Positions 3,341 through 11,692 of a stretch of DNA of 20,190 nucleotides are shown here, piece after piece (position 1 is the first letter of the stretch; every line of letters begins with the position of its first letter). The stretch is taken from IMG/VR virus record IMGVR_UViG_3300008216_000113, positions 1 to 20,190 of that record. The stretch is one strand, 5' to 3'. The DNA comes from a virus. The notes below the pieces were generated by a model that saw only the letters and a list, made by a program, of their open reading frames with translations, had not been told where the DNA came from and did not search any database. The position numbers and the translations under genes are program-made.

Positions 3341-5242
3341 CTAAGCGAACCCCGGCTGGCCCCGCAGAGCCTGTCTAATCAGAGGAGTCAGTGCCTGGGC
3401 CAGCTTCCGCGCTGACATGTCGTCCCCTAGCAGCACAGTCCCTCTGCGCGGGAAGTTGATGTTGACCGTGACGCCCATCCCAGCACCACCGCCACGACTG
3501 AGCGGGATGACAGCCTCTGGGCCACGCTCCCCGACCATTGCGAGGGTGGGGCTGCGGACGATGCCGCCCTTCGCGAGAAGAGGTATCTCTGGAATGTTCA
3601 GGCTGAATCCCTTGCCGCCAATCACTGGAACCCAAGAGGGGACGGATATCTTAATCTTGTTAGCGCCTCGTATCAGGGCGTTGAATGCGGAGAGGATGAT
3701 GTTGACGCCACCCTTCAGGCCACTCACGACAGTGTCGAACGCGGTCTTCATGAAGTTCCATATGAGGCTCCAGTAATTGGCGAGACTCTCCAGAGCTTTG
3801 GACAGCGACCCGCCTGGGAACATCCATCCCAGAGCGGAGTCGACCAATCCCTTAATCTTGTCAACGACTACCTTGAAGGTGCTCTTGACCTTGTCCCAAA
3901 TCGCCTTCCAGTTGTCTTTAATCCAGAGGATGCCTTTAACGAGCGCGCCACCAGGGAGCAGCCAGCCGAATTTAGAGTCGAACAGCGCCTTGATTTTGGT
4001 GGTCACCAACTCCCAGGTGGCCTTGAAGACCTTCACAATCTTGTCCCAGTTCTTAAACACCAGAATCACGCCTGCGATTGCCAGGGCGATTCCGAGGATT
4101 ATCAACCCTATAGGCCCCATAGCCACGTTGAGGACGGCCATCGCTGTGGCCTGAGCGTAAGTAGCCACTGTGTTAACAACCTTCGCGCCAGACAGAGCCG
4201 CTGTCAGCGTGGTGAGTGTCGGGAGTATCATCAGCATCGGCCCTGCCTTAGCAGCAAAGTCCCCGATGGGTGCCATCGCGCCCATGACTTTGTTCTTCAT
4301 AATGTCGAACTTCTCGGCGCTCGTCAGCGTACTTTCGGACAAGGTCAGCAAAGTGTCGTCCGAGTTCGCCATCGCTGCCATCATCTCATCGAGGCTAAAC
4401 ACCCCCTTGTCGATGGCATCCTTGAAAATAACGCCCGCGCCCGCTCCGAACGTATCCATTGCAAGCGCCAGGGCGGCAGTGTCATCCTCAGTGGCACCAA
4501 TCTCTTTTATGGCATCCTGAAGCGCTCCTGAGATGTCGGTAACACCCTCGTCGGCCAACTTCTTCATGGCTGCGGACAGCCCCGGCATCATTTTCCGAGC
4601 ATCTAACCCCGCCGATTCCATGTTGGTTATCAGAGCGATGGCCTCATCCATCGCGAGTCCCATCGCATTTAGCTGCGGGCCGAACTTGATGACCTTGTCC
4701 GCAATGCCCTGCATTGATACGCCGGAAGCCTGGGACGCGACGGTGAGCTTGTCCAGTAGAATCTCGGCGTCCTCCGCTGGTTCGCCAAATGCTATGAGGG
4801 TGTCAGCCGTGGCCTTAATCAGCCCCGCCATGTCCTCGCCCATTGCCCTGCCAGCACCAAGAGCCAGCGCGGCCACACTCTCCAGCTTGTCCCCGGTGAA
4901 CCCGAACTCCGTATTTACATCAGCGATGGCTGCGGCTACGGTCTTCGCGTCGTCGGGGACGTCCTTGAACACGTCCTTAAACGAGGCTTTCAGGTCTTCG
5001 AGGTCATCCCCGACGGCCCCTGTACCGGCAGCGATGATGTTCTCCGCTTCCTTGAACATATCGCCCAGCTTGAGGGCAGCAGCAGACGCAGCCATCAACC
5101 CAGCCGCGCCTATGGTTCCAATCTTGGAAAGATTGTCCTTTATCTTCCCGGCATGGGCCTTGATATTCTTGGACGCCTTGCCCATGCCCTTGGACGCATC
5201 GTCCTTGAGCTTGAGCTTAATCGTCAGGTCTTGTGTGCTCAT
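3341..5242 (-). CDS. Tail tape measure protein
   Basis: The tape measure sets tail length and is threaded through the tail tube. From the ATG at 5242 it has 633 residues. The sequence is Ala/Lys-rich and helical, with a phage-tail TP901-type central region (about 70-330: GLIKATADTLIAFG, VSMQGIADKVIKFGPQL, then SAGLDARKMMPGLSAAM). A hydrophobic stretch lies at about 370-397, a tandem repeat around W(L/M)xPGG at about 427 and 473, and the C-terminal LLAKGGIV, then AMVGERGPEAVIPLS, is typical of these proteins. The start at 5242 forms ATGA with the gp10-like stop; an in-frame ATG at 5257 would add five residues. The next gene begins immediately after its stop. With about 0.15 nm per residue, as is usual for this family, a tail near 95 nm is implied. 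Confidence 0.93.
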   Translation of the reverse strand: MSTQDLTIKLKLKDDASKGMGKASKNIKAHAGKIKDNLSKIGTIGAAGLMAASAAALKLGDMFKEAENIIAAGTGAVGDDLEDLKASFKDVFKDVPDDAKTVAAAIADVNTEFGFTGDKLESVAALALGAGRAMGEDMAGLIKATADTLIAFGEPAEDAEILLDKLTVASQASGVSMQGIADKVIKFGPQLNAMGLAMDEAIALITNMESAGLDARKMMPGLSAAMKKLADEGVTDISGALQDAIKEIGATEDDTAALALAMDTFGAGAGVIFKDAIDKGVFSLDEMMAAMANSDDTLLTLSESTLTSAEKFDIMKNKVMGAMAPIGDFAAKAGPMLMILPTLTTLTAALSGAKVVNTVATYAQATAMAVLNVAMGPIGLIILGIALAIAGVILVFKNWDKIVKVFKATWELVTTKIKALFDSKFGWLLPGGALVKGILWIKDNWKAIWDKVKSTFKVVVDKIKGLVDSALGWMFPGGSLSKALESLANYWSLIWNFMKTAFDTVVSGLKGGVNIILSAFNALIRGANKIKISVPSWVPVIGGKGFSLNIPEIPLLAKGGIVRSPTLAMVGERGPEAVIPLSRGGGAGMGVTVNINFPRRGTVLLGDDMSARKLAQALTPLIRQALRGQPGFA

Positions 5243-5730
5243 AGCTTCTTGCCCCATGCCTTCTTCAAGTCCGCGCCAAGTCGGGAAAGAATCTGCTTAA
5301 TCTTCGGCTGGGCCTTCTTGGCTCCAGGAGCCAGGAACGGCTGCGGGTCGATGCCCTCCCGCGCTATCTTCCGGGCTATCAGGAATGCGACTGCCATAGG
5401 GTTCGAGACTTTGAGCTTCTGACGCACCCACGGCTCCAGCGCGGCCACAGGGGGCATCTTCCCAGGCTTACGTCCGAACTCCACGTATCTCCCGTAGGTA
5501 ACTGTCGGGCCAACTTCGACCCACAACGCGAACGGAGGCCGCTGGTCGACCTCCGTGGTGATGCTCTGGCGTAGCGCTCCCGTGTTCACTGGGGCCAGAA
5601 TAGCAGCCTCTCCCTGGATGGCGAGTCCGCTCTGGCGCATGGCTTTAGTTACGGCATCGCCCATCCATTTGTTGGAGTCGAGGCGCTTCTTGGTGAGCTT
5701 AGCCAGTCCCTCGACGACTTCTTCAGGCAT
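5239..5730 (-). CDS. HK97 gp10-like neck / tail completion protein
   Basis: This 163-residue protein has the hallmarks of the HK97 gp10 family: an N-terminal helix with IQGEAAILAPVNTGALRQSI (about 39-58), then a beta segment with TYGRYVEFGRKPGKMPP, and near the C-terminus DPQPFLAPGAKKA. Family members work at the head-tail junction or in tail completion. The start ATG overlaps by 8 bases the stop of the chaperone's frameshift extension, and its stop overlaps the tape measure start (ATGA). The position is odd: in most related phages this gene lies between the connector and the tail terminator, whereas here it sits between the chaperone and the tape measure. The family call is firm; the exact role in this virion is inferred. 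Confidence 0.88.
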   Translation of the reverse strand: MPEEVVEGLAKLTKKRLDSNKWMGDAVTKAMRQSGLAIQGEAAILAPVNTGALRQSITTEVDQRPPFALWVEVGPTVTYGRYVEFGRKPGKMPPVAALEPWVRQKLKVSNPMAVAFLIARKIAREGIDPQPFLAPGAKKAQPKIKQILSRLGADLKKAWGKKL

Positions 5731-5887
5731 CGTTGAAGCTCATATCCCCGCCCGACTCCACGGTGCCGCGCACTGCGAGGAACAGCATCAGTCTGTCCAC
5801 CACCTCTGCGGGCGTATCCTGTAGCTGCTGCCAAGTCCAATGGGTCTCCGCTAGGATTTGCGACTCTTGCCACTCTGGCGAGATTTC
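5723..5887 (-). CDS. Tail assembly chaperone, -1 frameshift extension (T-like)
   Basis: In the -1 frame relative to the chaperone, codons run open from within that gene to a TGA at 5725-5723. The sequence looks like real protein: EISPEWQESQILAETHW, then TWQQLQDTPAEVVDRLMLFL, ending SFNDA. The frame has no ATG, GTG or TTG before the Val-Val pair in the middle, so it cannot start on its own upstream of its conserved-looking part. The likeliest slip is at A_AAG (5890-5887, zero-frame GCA AAG), which lets a Lys tRNA move from AAG to AAA. A small GCCA/UGGC stem (5869-5879) begins 7 bases downstream. Slipping there joins 117 zero-frame residues to 54 new ones, about 171 in all. The extension fills what would otherwise be a 120-base gap before the gp10-like gene. 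Confidence 0.78.
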   Translation of the reverse strand, partial: EISPEWQESQILAETHWTWQQLQDTPAEVVDRLMLFLAVRGTVESGGDMSFNDA

Positions 5888-6237
5888 TTTGCGGGCAAGG
5901 TCGGCGGCGAGACTTTCTGCGGCTCTCTTTCTCCCACCGCTGTTAATAAAGGGAGCACTCTCTCGTTGACGAGGTGCATCACCTCCGCAGCATCGACCAA
6001 ATCCATGTCGTTGACACTCTCAATGGAAATCGGCAGAGGGCCAGACCCATTCTGGTACGACCACGCACGAGTCAACGAGGACATGATGGCCGTCAACTGG
6101 TCTTCGTCCTCGCCCTTGTCCTCCTCAATACGCACCATATCTCGGCGTATCTTCATCATCTCGCCCCAGCGTGGTTGTACTTCGACCTCCCACCAGTTGC
6201 CTGAAGGGAGGTCGAGTCGGACTATCTCACTAGGCAT
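5851..6237 (-). CDS. Tail assembly chaperone, zero-frame (G-like) product
   Basis: This 128-residue protein lies between the tail-tube genes and the tape measure, where siphoviruses encode their tail assembly chaperones. It starts as a compact domain (MPSEIVRLDLPSGNWWEVEV) with a helical body (about 40-100, including SVNDMDLVDAAEVMHLVNE). It ends in a low-complexity basic tail (KKSRQSGKSRKS) that looks like read-out past a frameshift site. A -1 frame stays open across its end and encodes the T-like domain. Its start forms TAATG with the upstream tail protein. By analogy with lambda gpG/gpGT, the short and long products coat the tape measure during assembly. Family assignment rests on position, size and frameshift architecture rather than a named motif. 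Confidence 0.8.
   Translation of the reverse strand: MPSEIVRLDLPSGNWWEVEVQPRWGEMMKIRRDMVRIEEDKGEDEDQLTAIMSSLTRAWSYQNGSGPLPISIESVNDMDLVDAAEVMHLVNERVLPLLTAVGEREPQKVSPPTLPAKKSRQSGKSRKS
5869..5890 (-). promoter_or_regulatory. Candidate -1 ribosomal frameshift signal (A_AAG plus hairpin)
   Basis: The tetramer A_AAG lies at 5890-5887 in the right phase for a single-tRNA -1 slip. It is followed by a 7-base spacer and a short stem GCCA-GAG-UGGC. The stem is only 4 bp, and no full X XXY YYZ heptamer exists, so the exact slip site is uncertain; the -1 frame is open upstream to about 5969. Confidence 0.5.
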
Positions 6238-6665
6238 TAGGCCACAGTGCCTTTCGTGACAGTGCCGTCCACCTGCAAGGATGCTGTGAACGTGACATGG
6301 CTTCCGACAGTGGAGCTTATGGTGTAGTCAGTCACCCAGCACTCCGCAATGTAACTAGGATAGCCGGATGTCTTCCCAGCCGGATAATACTCCATAGTGA
6401 GGGCAGCGGTATGCGTTCGGAGTGCGCCGAGTACCACGTCTGGGCCAGACGTCGCCGTCGTGTCATAGTGTCCGCTGATTGATGGCGTGGAGTTCTGAAG
6501 TCCAGGGTGGAATTTAGAACCAGAGTCCCCCAGTGCCGTAATCTCGTTGAGGTTCCTCGGCCCTGGCAGTCCAGAGACATCCGTCAGGTATGCCGAGATT
6601 TCTCTGAGAGTGCCACCAGTGTCTTCAATCCAGAAATCCGATAGAGAACTGTCAAACTTTGCCAT
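6237..6665 (-). CDS. Tail tube protein, shorter paralog
   Basis: This 142-residue protein shares its full layout with the 244-residue protein encoded just upstream: both begin MAKFDSS, and both have NEIT, SGS.FHPG, and YDTTATSGPDVVLG followed by LRT, then a YYPAG or YWPAG turn. Beta-rich sequence, size and position between the tail terminator and the chaperone fit a tail tube subunit that polymerises around the tape measure. It has a strong AGGAGG site 5 bases before its ATG, consistent with high expression. It lacks the C-terminal beta domain of its paralog. It may be the main tube subunit, with the larger protein as a decorated or second ring subunit, or the reverse; the sequence does not decide. 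Confidence 0.8.
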   Translation of the reverse strand: MAKFDSSLSDFWIEDTGGTLREISAYLTDVSGLPGPRNLNEITALGDSGSKFHPGLQNSTPSISGHYDTTATSGPDVVLGALRTHTAALTMEYYPAGKTSGYPSYIAECWVTDYTISSTVGSHVTFTASLQVDGTVTKGTVA

Positions 6666-6674
6666 TTCGGCCTC

Positions 6675-7409
6675 CTACAACCTTGTGTATGAAATCCCAT
6701 ATGTTAACGACCCACTGCTTGCGTCCAGCACCACCCTGGATTTGACGTACCGGTTCAATGTCCCAGTGAAGGCGGTGTGTGCGGCTCCGACACCGTCAGA
6801 CGCAGTAACCGTAGCTGACGACACGTCTGAATATGTGCCGCCGCTTGAAGTTGCGTGTTGAAGATTTAGGTGCCACCTGGCGTTGCCGCCGACTGCGGAC
6901 AGCGCGAAGATGTGGTACGTCCACGACCCGCCAGCGGTAGAGGATGCAGCGTCGTCGATGTAAGTCGTAGAGGTGGACGCCGTCACTGTCGCGTAGGGAG
7001 CCGCCGCCTTGATGCGGAAGATCTGGCCCGCATCTATGGCGCTCGTTGCTGTCACCACGCTGCCAACGGACGACGACGTCTCGTAGGAGTTGGCCCATCC
7101 CTCTGGCACTCCTCGCCCCGTATAGCCGAGAGTGTCCCCAGCGGGCCAGTAGGAGACCACGGCTGCGGTGGATGATGTCCTCAATGTCCCTAGCACCACA
7201 TCGGGGCCAGATGTTGCGGTGGTGTCGTAGAAGCCTGACCAGGACAGCGTCTCGGCCTGGTTGCCAGGGTGGAACGTCGAGCCAGAGGAGCCGAACGTGG
7301 TTATCTCGTTGACGGCTCTGCCACCCCCGACAGAGAGGTCGGTGGTGTAAGTCGTCAAGTCGAATTCATTCAGGTAAAACTTGGATTTGCTGCTGTCGAA
7401 TTTTGCCAT
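6675..7409 (-). CDS. Tail tube protein with extra C-terminal beta domain
   Basis: The N-terminal ~125 residues are the paralog of the next gene's product (MAKFDSS start, NEITTFGSSGSTFHPG, FYDTTATSGPDVVLGTLRT). Residues ~130-244 form an added beta-sandwich-like domain (HIFALSAVGGNARWHLNLQH, then TGTLNRYVKSRVVLD, then GSLTYGISYTRL), of the kind appended to tail tube proteins and exposed on the tail surface in other phages. It starts directly after the tail terminator stop (TAA then ATG) with only a weak GAAGAG upstream, whereas the shorter paralog has a strong binding site. That contrast suggests the shorter form may be made in larger amounts, which is inference. Confidence 0.82.
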   Translation of the reverse strand: MAKFDSSKSKFYLNEFDLTTYTTDLSVGGGRAVNEITTFGSSGSTFHPGNQAETLSWSGFYDTTATSGPDVVLGTLRTSSTAAVVSYWPAGDTLGYTGRGVPEGWANSYETSSSVGSVVTATSAIDAGQIFRIKAAAPYATVTASTSTTYIDDAASSTAGGSWTYHIFALSAVGGNARWHLNLQHATSSGGTYSDVSSATVTASDGVGAAHTAFTGTLNRYVKSRVVLDASSGSLTYGISYTRL

Positions 7410-8872: not shown

Positions 8873-11692
8873 CTAAACTCCTGCCAGTTCGAGACGCTTG
8901 TCTAGTTTCTCTATCTGGGCATGAAGCGCCTGCACAGATAGCACGGTATAGCCTAGAGTGTTCACGGGATTCACAATGTTTCCCTTATAATGCATGGCCC
9001 AAGGCGCTTCATCCGCCATCACGCCGACATACTCTGTACTAGAGTCGCCCGTCCCCTTGCGCTCTTTGTAACGGAAATGGTAAGCAGGCGTGCTTAACAT
9101 GGCCTCCAGAGCTTCCTCGGGGCTTGCCTGCTCGCCTATGTCCTTGTGCTCCTTGAGAGAGCTTGCCGCTGTCCAGTCGCAGGCTGTGTCATCTCCGCCA
9201 GATGTTAGCTGCTGCCCATCGTCCCCGTGGTCAGTGCCGAGCGAAATCGCCCCGTCGAATCGGCTAGTACCAGCGTCCACGAAAAGGGCGTAGTTAGTGG
9301 CTCCTGCTGACCCCCCGGTGGCGATATACAGGGTCGAGGCCGTAGTAATGGTGGGAGTCGCTCCGCCACCGCCATTCGAGACGACGGGCTGAAGCACCAT
9401 CGTGCGGGCGTTAGTGACTGTTTGATTTGCGTTCGTCGCGGTATAGGCGAAGCCCTGGAACCTCGACGCGTGGACAGAGCTATAGGTCGTGGGGTCGGAG
9501 CCTGTCAGCGTGACGGTGTCGAAGTCCTGGATAAAAAACTCCATACTCCCAGAGGCTAACTGTGTGATGGGGGATACTGTCAGCCCTCCTCCGCCACTGC
9601 TTGTCCGAAGGTTGAAAGCGTACGTGGCCGTGGGACTGCTGTTGGTGTGCTTAAATGTGGCAGTCCAATCGTTACCCGCTCCGCCTACATTCAGGACGTG
9701 GTTATTCGCGAGGTCAATGTTCCCCGCCAATGTCAGCGTGCCCGCGGCCAGAGTCATCAGGTCGGTGTCACCCGTGTGGCCGATGGTCGTGCCATTGATG
9801 GCCACGTTGTCCACCGTCAGCGCTGTCAGTGTGCCAAGGCTCGTGACGTTGGTCTGTGCAGCCGTGGAGAGCGTCCCTGCAAGCTCTCCAGAACTCCCGT
9901 AGATTACCGCCTTGGAGTTAACCACCGAGTTGGCGCTGGAGCCATCCAGAAGGTTAATCTCGGCGGCTGTCGAAGTGACCCCGTCAAGGATGTTAAGCTC
10001 TGCTGCCGTAGAGGTAACCCCGTCCAGAATGTTTAGCTCTGCTGCTGTAGAGGTGACCCCATCAAGGATGTTTAGCTCTGCCGCTGTGCTGCTGACGTTA
10101 GTACCGCCGATGTCCAGCGTGGTCATACTGACCTCGCCAGCCGTCAGGATGTTGGTGGTAGCGTTATAGGTCAGCGCCGCCTCGGAGGAGAGGACGCCGT
10201 CGGCGCCCGTATAGACCACCTGCCCGGCAGTCAGCCCGTCAGCCAGGAATCCCGACGCTCTTACCGTGTAGCTCCCAACGTCCACGTTATTGGCGATGGT
10301 CAACGAGGTAATCGCGTCAACTGTCCCGCCATCTATGTCAGGAGTGTTGATGTCGCCCGTCGTGATTACTGGAGAGGCCAGGGTCTTGTTGCTGAGAGTG
10401 TCAGCAGTTGCCAAGCCCACGAACGTGTCCGTGGCGTTCGGCAGAGTCCACGTCCTGTCGGCAGTCGGGTCGGTGATGGCAAGAGTCGTCTCGTATCCGT
10501 CGGCCGTACCGCCCTCGAAGACGAGTGGGCTGGCTCCCTGGATGGTTCCTGTGATGGTCACCGTGTCCGAAGCAGCGTTGCCCAGAGTCACGTTTCCTGT
10601 CGCCGTTAGATTGGCAAACGTCACGTTGGCGGTAGTGGCGAGGTCTTGGTCGATGGTCGCCGTCTCTGAGATTGTGAACGTCTTGCCACTCCCTCCGAAG
10701 GCGAGAGTGTTGGAGTTGGCAGAAGGGTCGATGCTCAGAACTCCTGCTGTGCCGGGAGCCTTGAGTTCCCACCCTGCCCGGTCTGCTGCTGTCTTAAAAT
10801 AGCCCGTCACGCTGGAGTCCTCTTCGACCTCTATCCCAACAGCAGTTCCGCTCGACGCGCTGCCGCCGTCGTTCAGAGTGATGAGCTTATCGGACACCAG
10901 CAGGTTGGTCGTGCTGACTGTCGTCTGCGTCCCTGACACCGTGAGGTTCCCAGGAATAGTGACAGTCGTCCCAGATGCCCCTATCGTGAGCGTGTTGGCT
11001 CCGATAGTGTCGAGGATGGTCTTGTCCCCGCTCGTCATATCGAGGTCGGTGAGCGCTGTTAGAGCGCCACCGTTGAGGACAGGAGACGTCAGGGTCTTGT
11101 TTGTGAGCGTCTCAGAGCCTGTTAGAGAGACGAGGCCAGCCTCAGCGTAGGTTCTATCAACCCAGGCGCTTCCGCTGTACTGTAGGACGTCGTTAGAAGC
11201 TGGCCCAGAGATGGTCGTGTCATTAAGCTCAGCCAGGGTGTCCTCGGTTGCCACCTGTGCATCCACATAAGCCTTGATGGACTGCTGAGTGGCAAGCTGG
11301 GTGGCCGAGTTCCCCGACATGTCATCCTGGTCGAGGACGGCAGAGCCGGAGACCCCAGTGTTCAGGACAGGCGACGTGAGGGTCTTGTTCGTCAGGGTCG
11401 CAGCGAAGGCATTGAAGGTGAACGTGTCGTTCCCTGTCAGGAGTGGCAGCGTGATAGTCCTGTCTGCCGCTAACTCGGAGACAGCGAAGACGTACTGATG
11501 GTCGGCGCTGGAGTCCTCGATTTGAGGAGTCGTCAGGGCAGCAACATCGACCCATTTTCCCGCGCTGGTGGAGTACTGGAGCCGGTCAAGATTAGCTGCG
11601 GACGCAACGGTCACGTCAGACAGCCCGGTCAAGCTCGTCGGAGCAGCTACGTACTGTAGATTAGCGCCTCTGAAGGTCGCATTCCTGCTCAT
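8873..11692 (-). CDS. Fiber with C-terminal S74 intramolecular chaperone, probably head-attached
   Basis: This 939-residue protein is a long beta-repeat fiber. N-terminal residues 1-60 (LTGLSDVTVASAANLDRLQY) look like an attachment domain. TLTNKTLTSPVLN-type repeats occur at ~98, ~196 and ~434, and four 13-residue STAAELNILDGVT repeats at 535-584. A globular region follows (about 660-830). The C-terminus, from ~843, is a peptidase S74/endosialidase-type chaperone: AASSLKEHKDI, then EALEAMLSTPAYHFRYKE, EYVGVMADEAP and the helix GYTVLSVQALHAQIEKLDKR. Such domains help the fiber trimerise and then cut themselves off, usually at a Ser just before Leu-Lys; here S844 or S845 with K847 are the candidates. 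No enzyme domain is evident. It lies between possible decoration proteins and the connector, not after the tape measure, so a head fiber is likely, though a tail or neck fiber is possible. Confidence 0.88.
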   Translation of the reverse strand: MSRNATFRGANLQYVAAPTSLTGLSDVTVASAANLDRLQYSTSAGKWVDVAALTTPQIEDSSADHQYVFAVSELAADRTITLPLLTGNDTFTFNAFAATLTNKTLTSPVLNTGVSGSAVLDQDDMSGNSATQLATQQSIKAYVDAQVATEDTLAELNDTTISGPASNDVLQYSGSAWVDRTYAEAGLVSLTGSETLTNKTLTSPVLNGGALTALTDLDMTSGDKTILDTIGANTLTIGASGTTVTIPGNLTVSGTQTTVSTTNLLVSDKLITLNDGGSASSGTAVGIEVEEDSSVTGYFKTAADRAGWELKAPGTAGVLSIDPSANSNTLAFGGSGKTFTISETATIDQDLATTANVTFANLTATGNVTLGNAASDTVTITGTIQGASPLVFEGGTADGYETTLAITDPTADRTWTLPNATDTFVGLATADTLSNKTLASPVITTGDINTPDIDGGTVDAITSLTIANNVDVGSYTVRASGFLADGLTAGQVVYTGADGVLSSEAALTYNATTNILTAGEVSMTTLDIGGTNVSSTAAELNILDGVTSTAAELNILDGVTSTAAELNILDGVTSTAAEINLLDGSSANSVVNSKAVIYGSSGELAGTLSTAAQTNVTSLGTLTALTVDNVAINGTTIGHTGDTDLMTLAAGTLTLAGNIDLANNHVLNVGGAGNDWTATFKHTNSSPTATYAFNLRTSSGGGGLTVSPITQLASGSMEFFIQDFDTVTLTGSDPTTYSSVHASRFQGFAYTATNANQTVTNARTMVLQPVVSNGGGGATPTITTASTLYIATGGSAGATNYALFVDAGTSRFDGAISLGTDHGDDGQQLTSGGDDTACDWTAASSLKEHKDIGEQASPEEALEAMLSTPAYHFRYKERKGTGDSSTEYVGVMADEAPWAMHYKGNIVNPVNTLGYTVLSVQALHAQIEKLDKRLELAGV
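9941..10090 (-). repeat. Four tandem ~39-bp coding repeats in the fiber
   Basis: Three full units encode STAAELNILDGVT and a fourth partial, diverged unit encodes STAAEINLLDG. The DNA copies differ at many synonymous positions, so the repeat is kept at the protein level. Repeats of this kind are common in phage fiber shafts and form short beta turns or collar segments. Confidence 0.9.

Follow-up and report, generated by a model that had tools for sequence, protein, structure and literature searches.

Frameshifting in G/GT-type tail assembly chaperone genes is widespread in long-tailed phages (PMC5009743), a distribution also described for tail chaperones in connection with PRFect (PMC10885494). 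In phage lambda, the gene for gpG/gpGT follows the tail tube gene, precedes that of the tape measure and yields a short 0-frame product and a longer -1 fusion with a common N-terminus (PMC5009743). The locus considered here lies in a stretch of 20,190 nucleotides from an uncultivated phage (IMG/VR record IMGVR_UViG_3300008216_000113, positions 1 to 20,190, hereafter the window) and likewise contains, between its tail tube and tape measure genes, a gene for which the same pair of products is predicted, in the absence of any detectable sequence similarity to lambda gpG/gpGT. A sequence-only reading of the window had proposed programmed -1 frameshifting in this gene, a proposal that gained support from the position of the gene, the conservation of -1 coding in relatives and the missing start codon. 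From comparison of these sequences, we consider a programmed -1 frameshift at the heptamer C_CCU_UUA in this G/GT-like gene very probable, each comparative test applied having spoken for the frameshift. The known picture of tail assembly is left unchanged. The mechanism would be an ordinary one, following the two-product scheme of many tailed phages in a family of novel sequence; what is gained is the annotation of a gene family of uncultivated phages that is otherwise without matches.

Gene order and overlapping frames

The genes are encoded on the minus strand in the order tail terminator (phrog_17840), two tail tube paralogues, chaperone gene, gp10-like gene and tape measure. The candidate G-like chaperone gene, identified from its open reading frame, homologues and position, occupies 5851-6237 and encodes 128 amino acids in the 0 frame, ending at a stop at 5853-5851. 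It is located between the genes for the major tail (tube) protein (6237-6665; phrog_10528, E 3e-30) and the tape measure protein (3341-5257; phrog_991, E 4e-61; PF10145), the position expected of a G/GT-type pair. The -1 frame is stop-free from 6019 to a stop at 5725-5723, so that both the extent of the 0-frame gene and the open -1 frame described in the sequence-only reading are borne out. As that reading had also noted, the -1 frame runs into the next gene, which encodes an HK97-gp10-like tail completion/neck protein (5239-5730; PF04883, phrog_5): the -1 stop overlaps the gp10-like ATG at 5730 within ATGCCTGA, an overlap which reads ATGGCTAA in one of the two clades of relatives (clade B, below) and is found in every relative.

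Several other features of the tail region were observed. The gp10-like gene is located between the chaperone and tape measure genes, unlike in lambda, the more usual place of such a gene being before the tail tube. The two tail tube paralogues are adjacent (6237-7409, minus strand) and encode 142 and 244 amino acids, the larger carrying a C-terminal extension, and a second, weaker tube-protein match was detected in all five relative contigs checked. A 939-amino acid open reading frame (8873-11692, minus strand) contains tandem TSTAAELNILDGV repeats, and its C-terminus, judged by eye, resembles the end of a tail fibre or spike.

Relatives and the protected frame

Relatives were identified using as queries the 0-frame protein, the peptide of the -1 frame and alignments of each, and originate from several IMG/VR samples. 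One contig (L002) is identical to the window over the 1,200 nt compared. Homologues of the 0-frame protein are present in seven further contigs at 61-85% amino acid identity (tblastn), with identity of 69-93% in the -1-frame segment, and fall into two clades only. Clade A (L003, L004 and L005) shows 81-85% amino acid identity (tblastn), rising to as much as 93% in the -1 frame, and clade B (L028/L010, L011, L029/L026 and L030/L027) shows 61-63% in the 0 frame (tblastn) and about 69% in the -1 frame. The domain encoded in the -1 frame had no relative in bacterial genome contigs, and the chaperone of the window was absent upstream of the gp10-like gene in six loci inspected (L018, L019, L021, L022, L023 and L025), in which the gp10-like protein is 30-44% identical.

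Stops in the -1 frame of relatives, or a proper start codon for it, had been named beforehand as observations that would speak against a frameshift. The -1 frame is open in all eight sequences, the window included, and a TTG in clade B (below) is the one start that precedes the conserved domain; the proposal thus withstood this test. The pattern of substitution also points to conserved coding in the -1 frame. Upstream of the heptamer, substitutions are distributed over the three 0-frame codon positions as 46/23/101, an ordinary third-position pattern, changing to 8/26/19 between the heptamer and the 0-frame stop and to 9/43/16 past that stop. Since the second codon position of the 0 frame corresponds to the third of the -1 frame, it is at the heptamer that protection passes from one frame to the other. 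For the -1 frame, pairwise pN/pS amounts to 0.28 over the entire segment and to 0.18 beyond the 0-frame stop. Within the overlap the ratio does not cleanly separate the frames, being 0.47 for both when all representatives are considered and 0.50 (-1 frame) versus 0.69 (0 frame) in clade A. Thus, as in a G/GT-type pair, an overlapping -1 frame that has no start of its own is under purifying selection.

A single-base shift between two reading frames always invites the interpretation that they are parts of a disrupted gene, or that the assembly contains an indel error. The probability of this is close to negligible, since the arrangement recurs in seven contigs besides the window, taken from several IMG/VR samples, at protein identities of 81-93% (clade A) and 61-69% (clade B), and purifying selection is detected on both sides. 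No relative was found in which both parts are fused in one frame without a slip site.

Two additional, distant loci (L012 and L013) were left out as evidence; they share with the window only a 20-residue motif of the -1 frame, at 65% identity. Each contains a two-frame gene of its own (about 2896-3138 in L012 and about 1205-1400 in L013), in which the 0 frame ends in GGCGCGGGGGACTAG or GGCGCGGGGGCCTAG and the -1 frame carries WTWQQLQDTPA, that short motif being all that is common to the -1 domain of the window.

The slippery heptamer

The sequence-only reading had concluded that the region lacks a canonical X XXY YYZ heptamer, a conclusion which is incorrect: CCCTTTA is found at 5953-5947 (minus strand; 0-frame codons CTC CCT TTA), its first C occupying the third position of a 0-frame codon, exactly the canonical phase. 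C_CCT_TTA is the sole canonical X_XXY_YYZ sequence within 6300-5600, and so the only in-phase one in the overlap of the frames. Across 6,136 codons of the window's minus-strand open reading frames there are 6 in-phase XXXYYYZ sequences. Upon synonymous resampling of the chaperone gene, 15% of trials placed a heptamer in the overlap zone, or 6% if the second triplet was restricted to Y = A or T. In the window alone, the heptamer is therefore modest evidence; it becomes strong because the heptamer is invariant across relatives. The alignment of the slip region, which the sequence-only reading had recommended, shows CCCTTTA at the same place and in the same phase in all seven other contigs (L003, L004, L005, L028, L011, L029 and L030), pointing to it as the site. 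In comparison, of 21 upstream fourfold-degenerate sites at which the amino acid is conserved, six representatives all agree at only 2.

The limits of the frames in clade B lead to the same place. In three members (L028, L011 and L029) a -1-frame stop is located 12 nt before the heptamer, and the 0 frame of this clade reaches its own stop 43 nt past the first base of the heptamer; the clade B slip must fall between these two stops. These positions bear directly on the slip site favoured in the sequence-only reading, single-tRNA slippage on the tetramer A_AAG at 5890-5887 (minus strand), 63 nt past the first base of the heptamer. The tetramer is present and in the phase described, clade A relatives retain GCAAAG, and A_AAG ranks first among single-tRNA motifs in E. 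coli (PMC4066793). However, the clade B 0 frame ends at +43, 20 nt short of the corresponding position, and A_AAG is therefore not the slip site in that clade. In addition, the -1 coding pattern is already observed between the heptamer and A_AAG, and INSGGRKRAAESLAADLAR, which precedes KEISPEWQ, belongs to the conserved -1 frame and would be left out by a junction at A_AAG. The small GCCA-GAG-TGGC stem reported 7 bases past the tetramer does occur in the window but is not kept in L007, L008 and L009. A role for A_AAG as the slip site is thus highly improbable, and the tetramer was rejected on account of clade B, of the -1 conservation upstream of it and of the loss of the small stem. Here comparison of relatives fixed the slip site where a single sequence had misled.

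The heptamer itself is suited to slippage, as C_CC.U_UU.A is among the motifs that gave more than 0.10% -1 frameshifting in vivo in E. coli without stimulators (PMC4066793). A heptamer measured as shift-prone in E. coli would thereby join the natural sites proposed for tail chaperones. No phage paper linking CCCTTTA or CCCUUUA with frameshifting was found in the open-access literature, a result that says little about subscription papers, nor was an example of C_CCU_UUA as a tail-chaperone slip site found in the open-access papers searched. The slip site of lambda is G_GGA_AAG, compared with C_CCU_UUA in the window. An identical CCCUUUA heptamer has been proposed for the -1 shift of Giardiavirus, which, unlike the window, is a eukaryotic dsRNA virus producing a CP/RdRp fusion, and the report concerned disputes that site (PMC8230311).

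Start codons and predicted products

The sequence-only reading was correct in finding no early start codon in the -1 frame. In the window, no ATG, GTG or TTG occurs in this frame before 5803, a position that falls inside the conserved domain. The possibility of an independent small gene in the -1 frame, with its own, perhaps unusual, start or with coupling to upstream translation, could draw on two codons. One is an ATT that every relative has in the -1 frame immediately past the slip, a poor start codon whose presence the slip site itself accounts for. The other is a TTG in clade B, 69 nt past the first base of the heptamer and the only start found before the conserved domain in any relative, but it is missing from clade A and its use would drop the first 21 residues, and with them the first helix, of the -1 domain. 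A separate gene would also leave unexplained the invariant in-phase heptamer and the -1 conservation that begins right at it, and we regard such a gene as very unlikely. The arrangement of the frames, the conservation of heptamer and -1 frame and the missing start codon are established by the sequence comparison, and we infer that slippage at C_CCU_UUA occurs at a useful rate.

With a programmed frameshift at this heptamer, two products are predicted, a 128-amino acid G-like protein and a 171-amino acid GT-like fusion. Most ribosomes would read the 0 frame to its stop and release the former. In a minority, tRNA-Pro on CCU and tRNA-Leu on UUA would slip back one base on C_CCU_UUA to CCC UUU, and reading would resume in the -1 frame from AUU, giving the fusion ending at 5723. 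The fusion would consist of 97 residues from the 0 frame (...NERVLPL|INSGGRKRAAESLAADLARKEISPEWQ...) and 74 from the -1 frame, the latter encoded by an open and conserved segment at 5723-5947 (74 amino acids plus stop) with a T-like domain, INSGGRKRAAESLAADLARKEISPEWQESQILAETHW...FNDA. The conserved -1 peptide is longer than the 54 residues given in the sequence-only reading since the heptamer lies upstream. The -1 part is modelled as all-helical with a mean pLDDT of 83; for the 0-frame protein the structure model reached a pLDDT of 42, a confidence too low for use. If the products act as lambda gpG/gpGT do, the N-terminal part common to both would coat the tape measure protein and the helical domain encoded in the -1 frame would recruit the tail tube protein.

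RNA structure around the probable slip site

Downstream stimulatory structures are common, but not obligatory, in G/GT-type frameshifting. In the window, a 9-bp stem can be formed 6 nt after the heptamer, in which GCGGUGGGA (5940-5932) pairs with UCUCGCCGC (5912-5904) in a candidate stimulatory hairpin (5904-5940, minus strand), and stems can be drawn 5-9 nt downstream of the heptamer in the relatives with differing registers. Consensus folding returned only a short hairpin past the heptamer, with one compensatory pair, and the folding of this region relative to shuffled sequences is weak, with z-scores between about +0.4 and -2.6 according to the relative and the length considered. A downstream stimulatory structure past the heptamer is possible. 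Before the slip site, inspection by eye revealed no evidently conserved Shine-Dalgarno-like stimulator. We suggest, tentatively and with some doubt, that the locus represents a G/GT family new in sequence and missing from Pfam and PHROGs, with slippage at C_CCU_UUA and possibly little or no conserved RNA stimulator.

Elsewhere in the gene, a strong RNA hairpin (UCGACCUCCC...GGGAGGUCGA) is observed near the start (6182-6215, minus strand); its z-score is about -4 in the window, -3 in L004 and weaker in clade B. This hairpin could affect translation of the chaperone gene, or may merely follow from the conserved protein sequence.

Family searches and the chaperone of phage CRP-823

Scans of the chaperone products against Pfam and PHROGs gave no family match, and comparison with PDB sequence profiles gave no meaningful match. 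Matches in PDB to leucine-rich-repeat proteins were discounted as they covered only 17-19 residues. A Foldseek search of viral models with the -1 domain returned no match, and tblastn of the fused protein against phage records, the search proposed in the sequence-only reading, was uninformative. In these searches, similarity to a described chaperone family was detected neither in sequence nor in fold; low sequence similarity is a known trait of the G/GT-type class (PMC5009743). The name chaperone is proposed from position and architecture, and we infer a chaperone function.

A comparable arrangement is present in Roseobacter phage CRP-823 (PV211013), in which the putative tail assembly chaperone gene (CRP823_34) follows a distantly related tail tube gene whose product is 36% identical to that of the window. 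Ahead of its tape measure, CRP-823 has a -1 frame that is open yet unannotated, together with an in-phase heptamer of its own, A_AAA_AAC. It differs from the window in the identity of the heptamer and in having no gp10-like gene in between, and profile comparison detected no homology between the chaperones of the window and of Roseobacter phages. In the CRP-823 record (PV211013.1, 4640-4800), annotation of the chaperone is confined to the 0-frame part, and the in-phase A_AAA_AAC together with the open -1 frame suggests that a frameshifted product has been missed.
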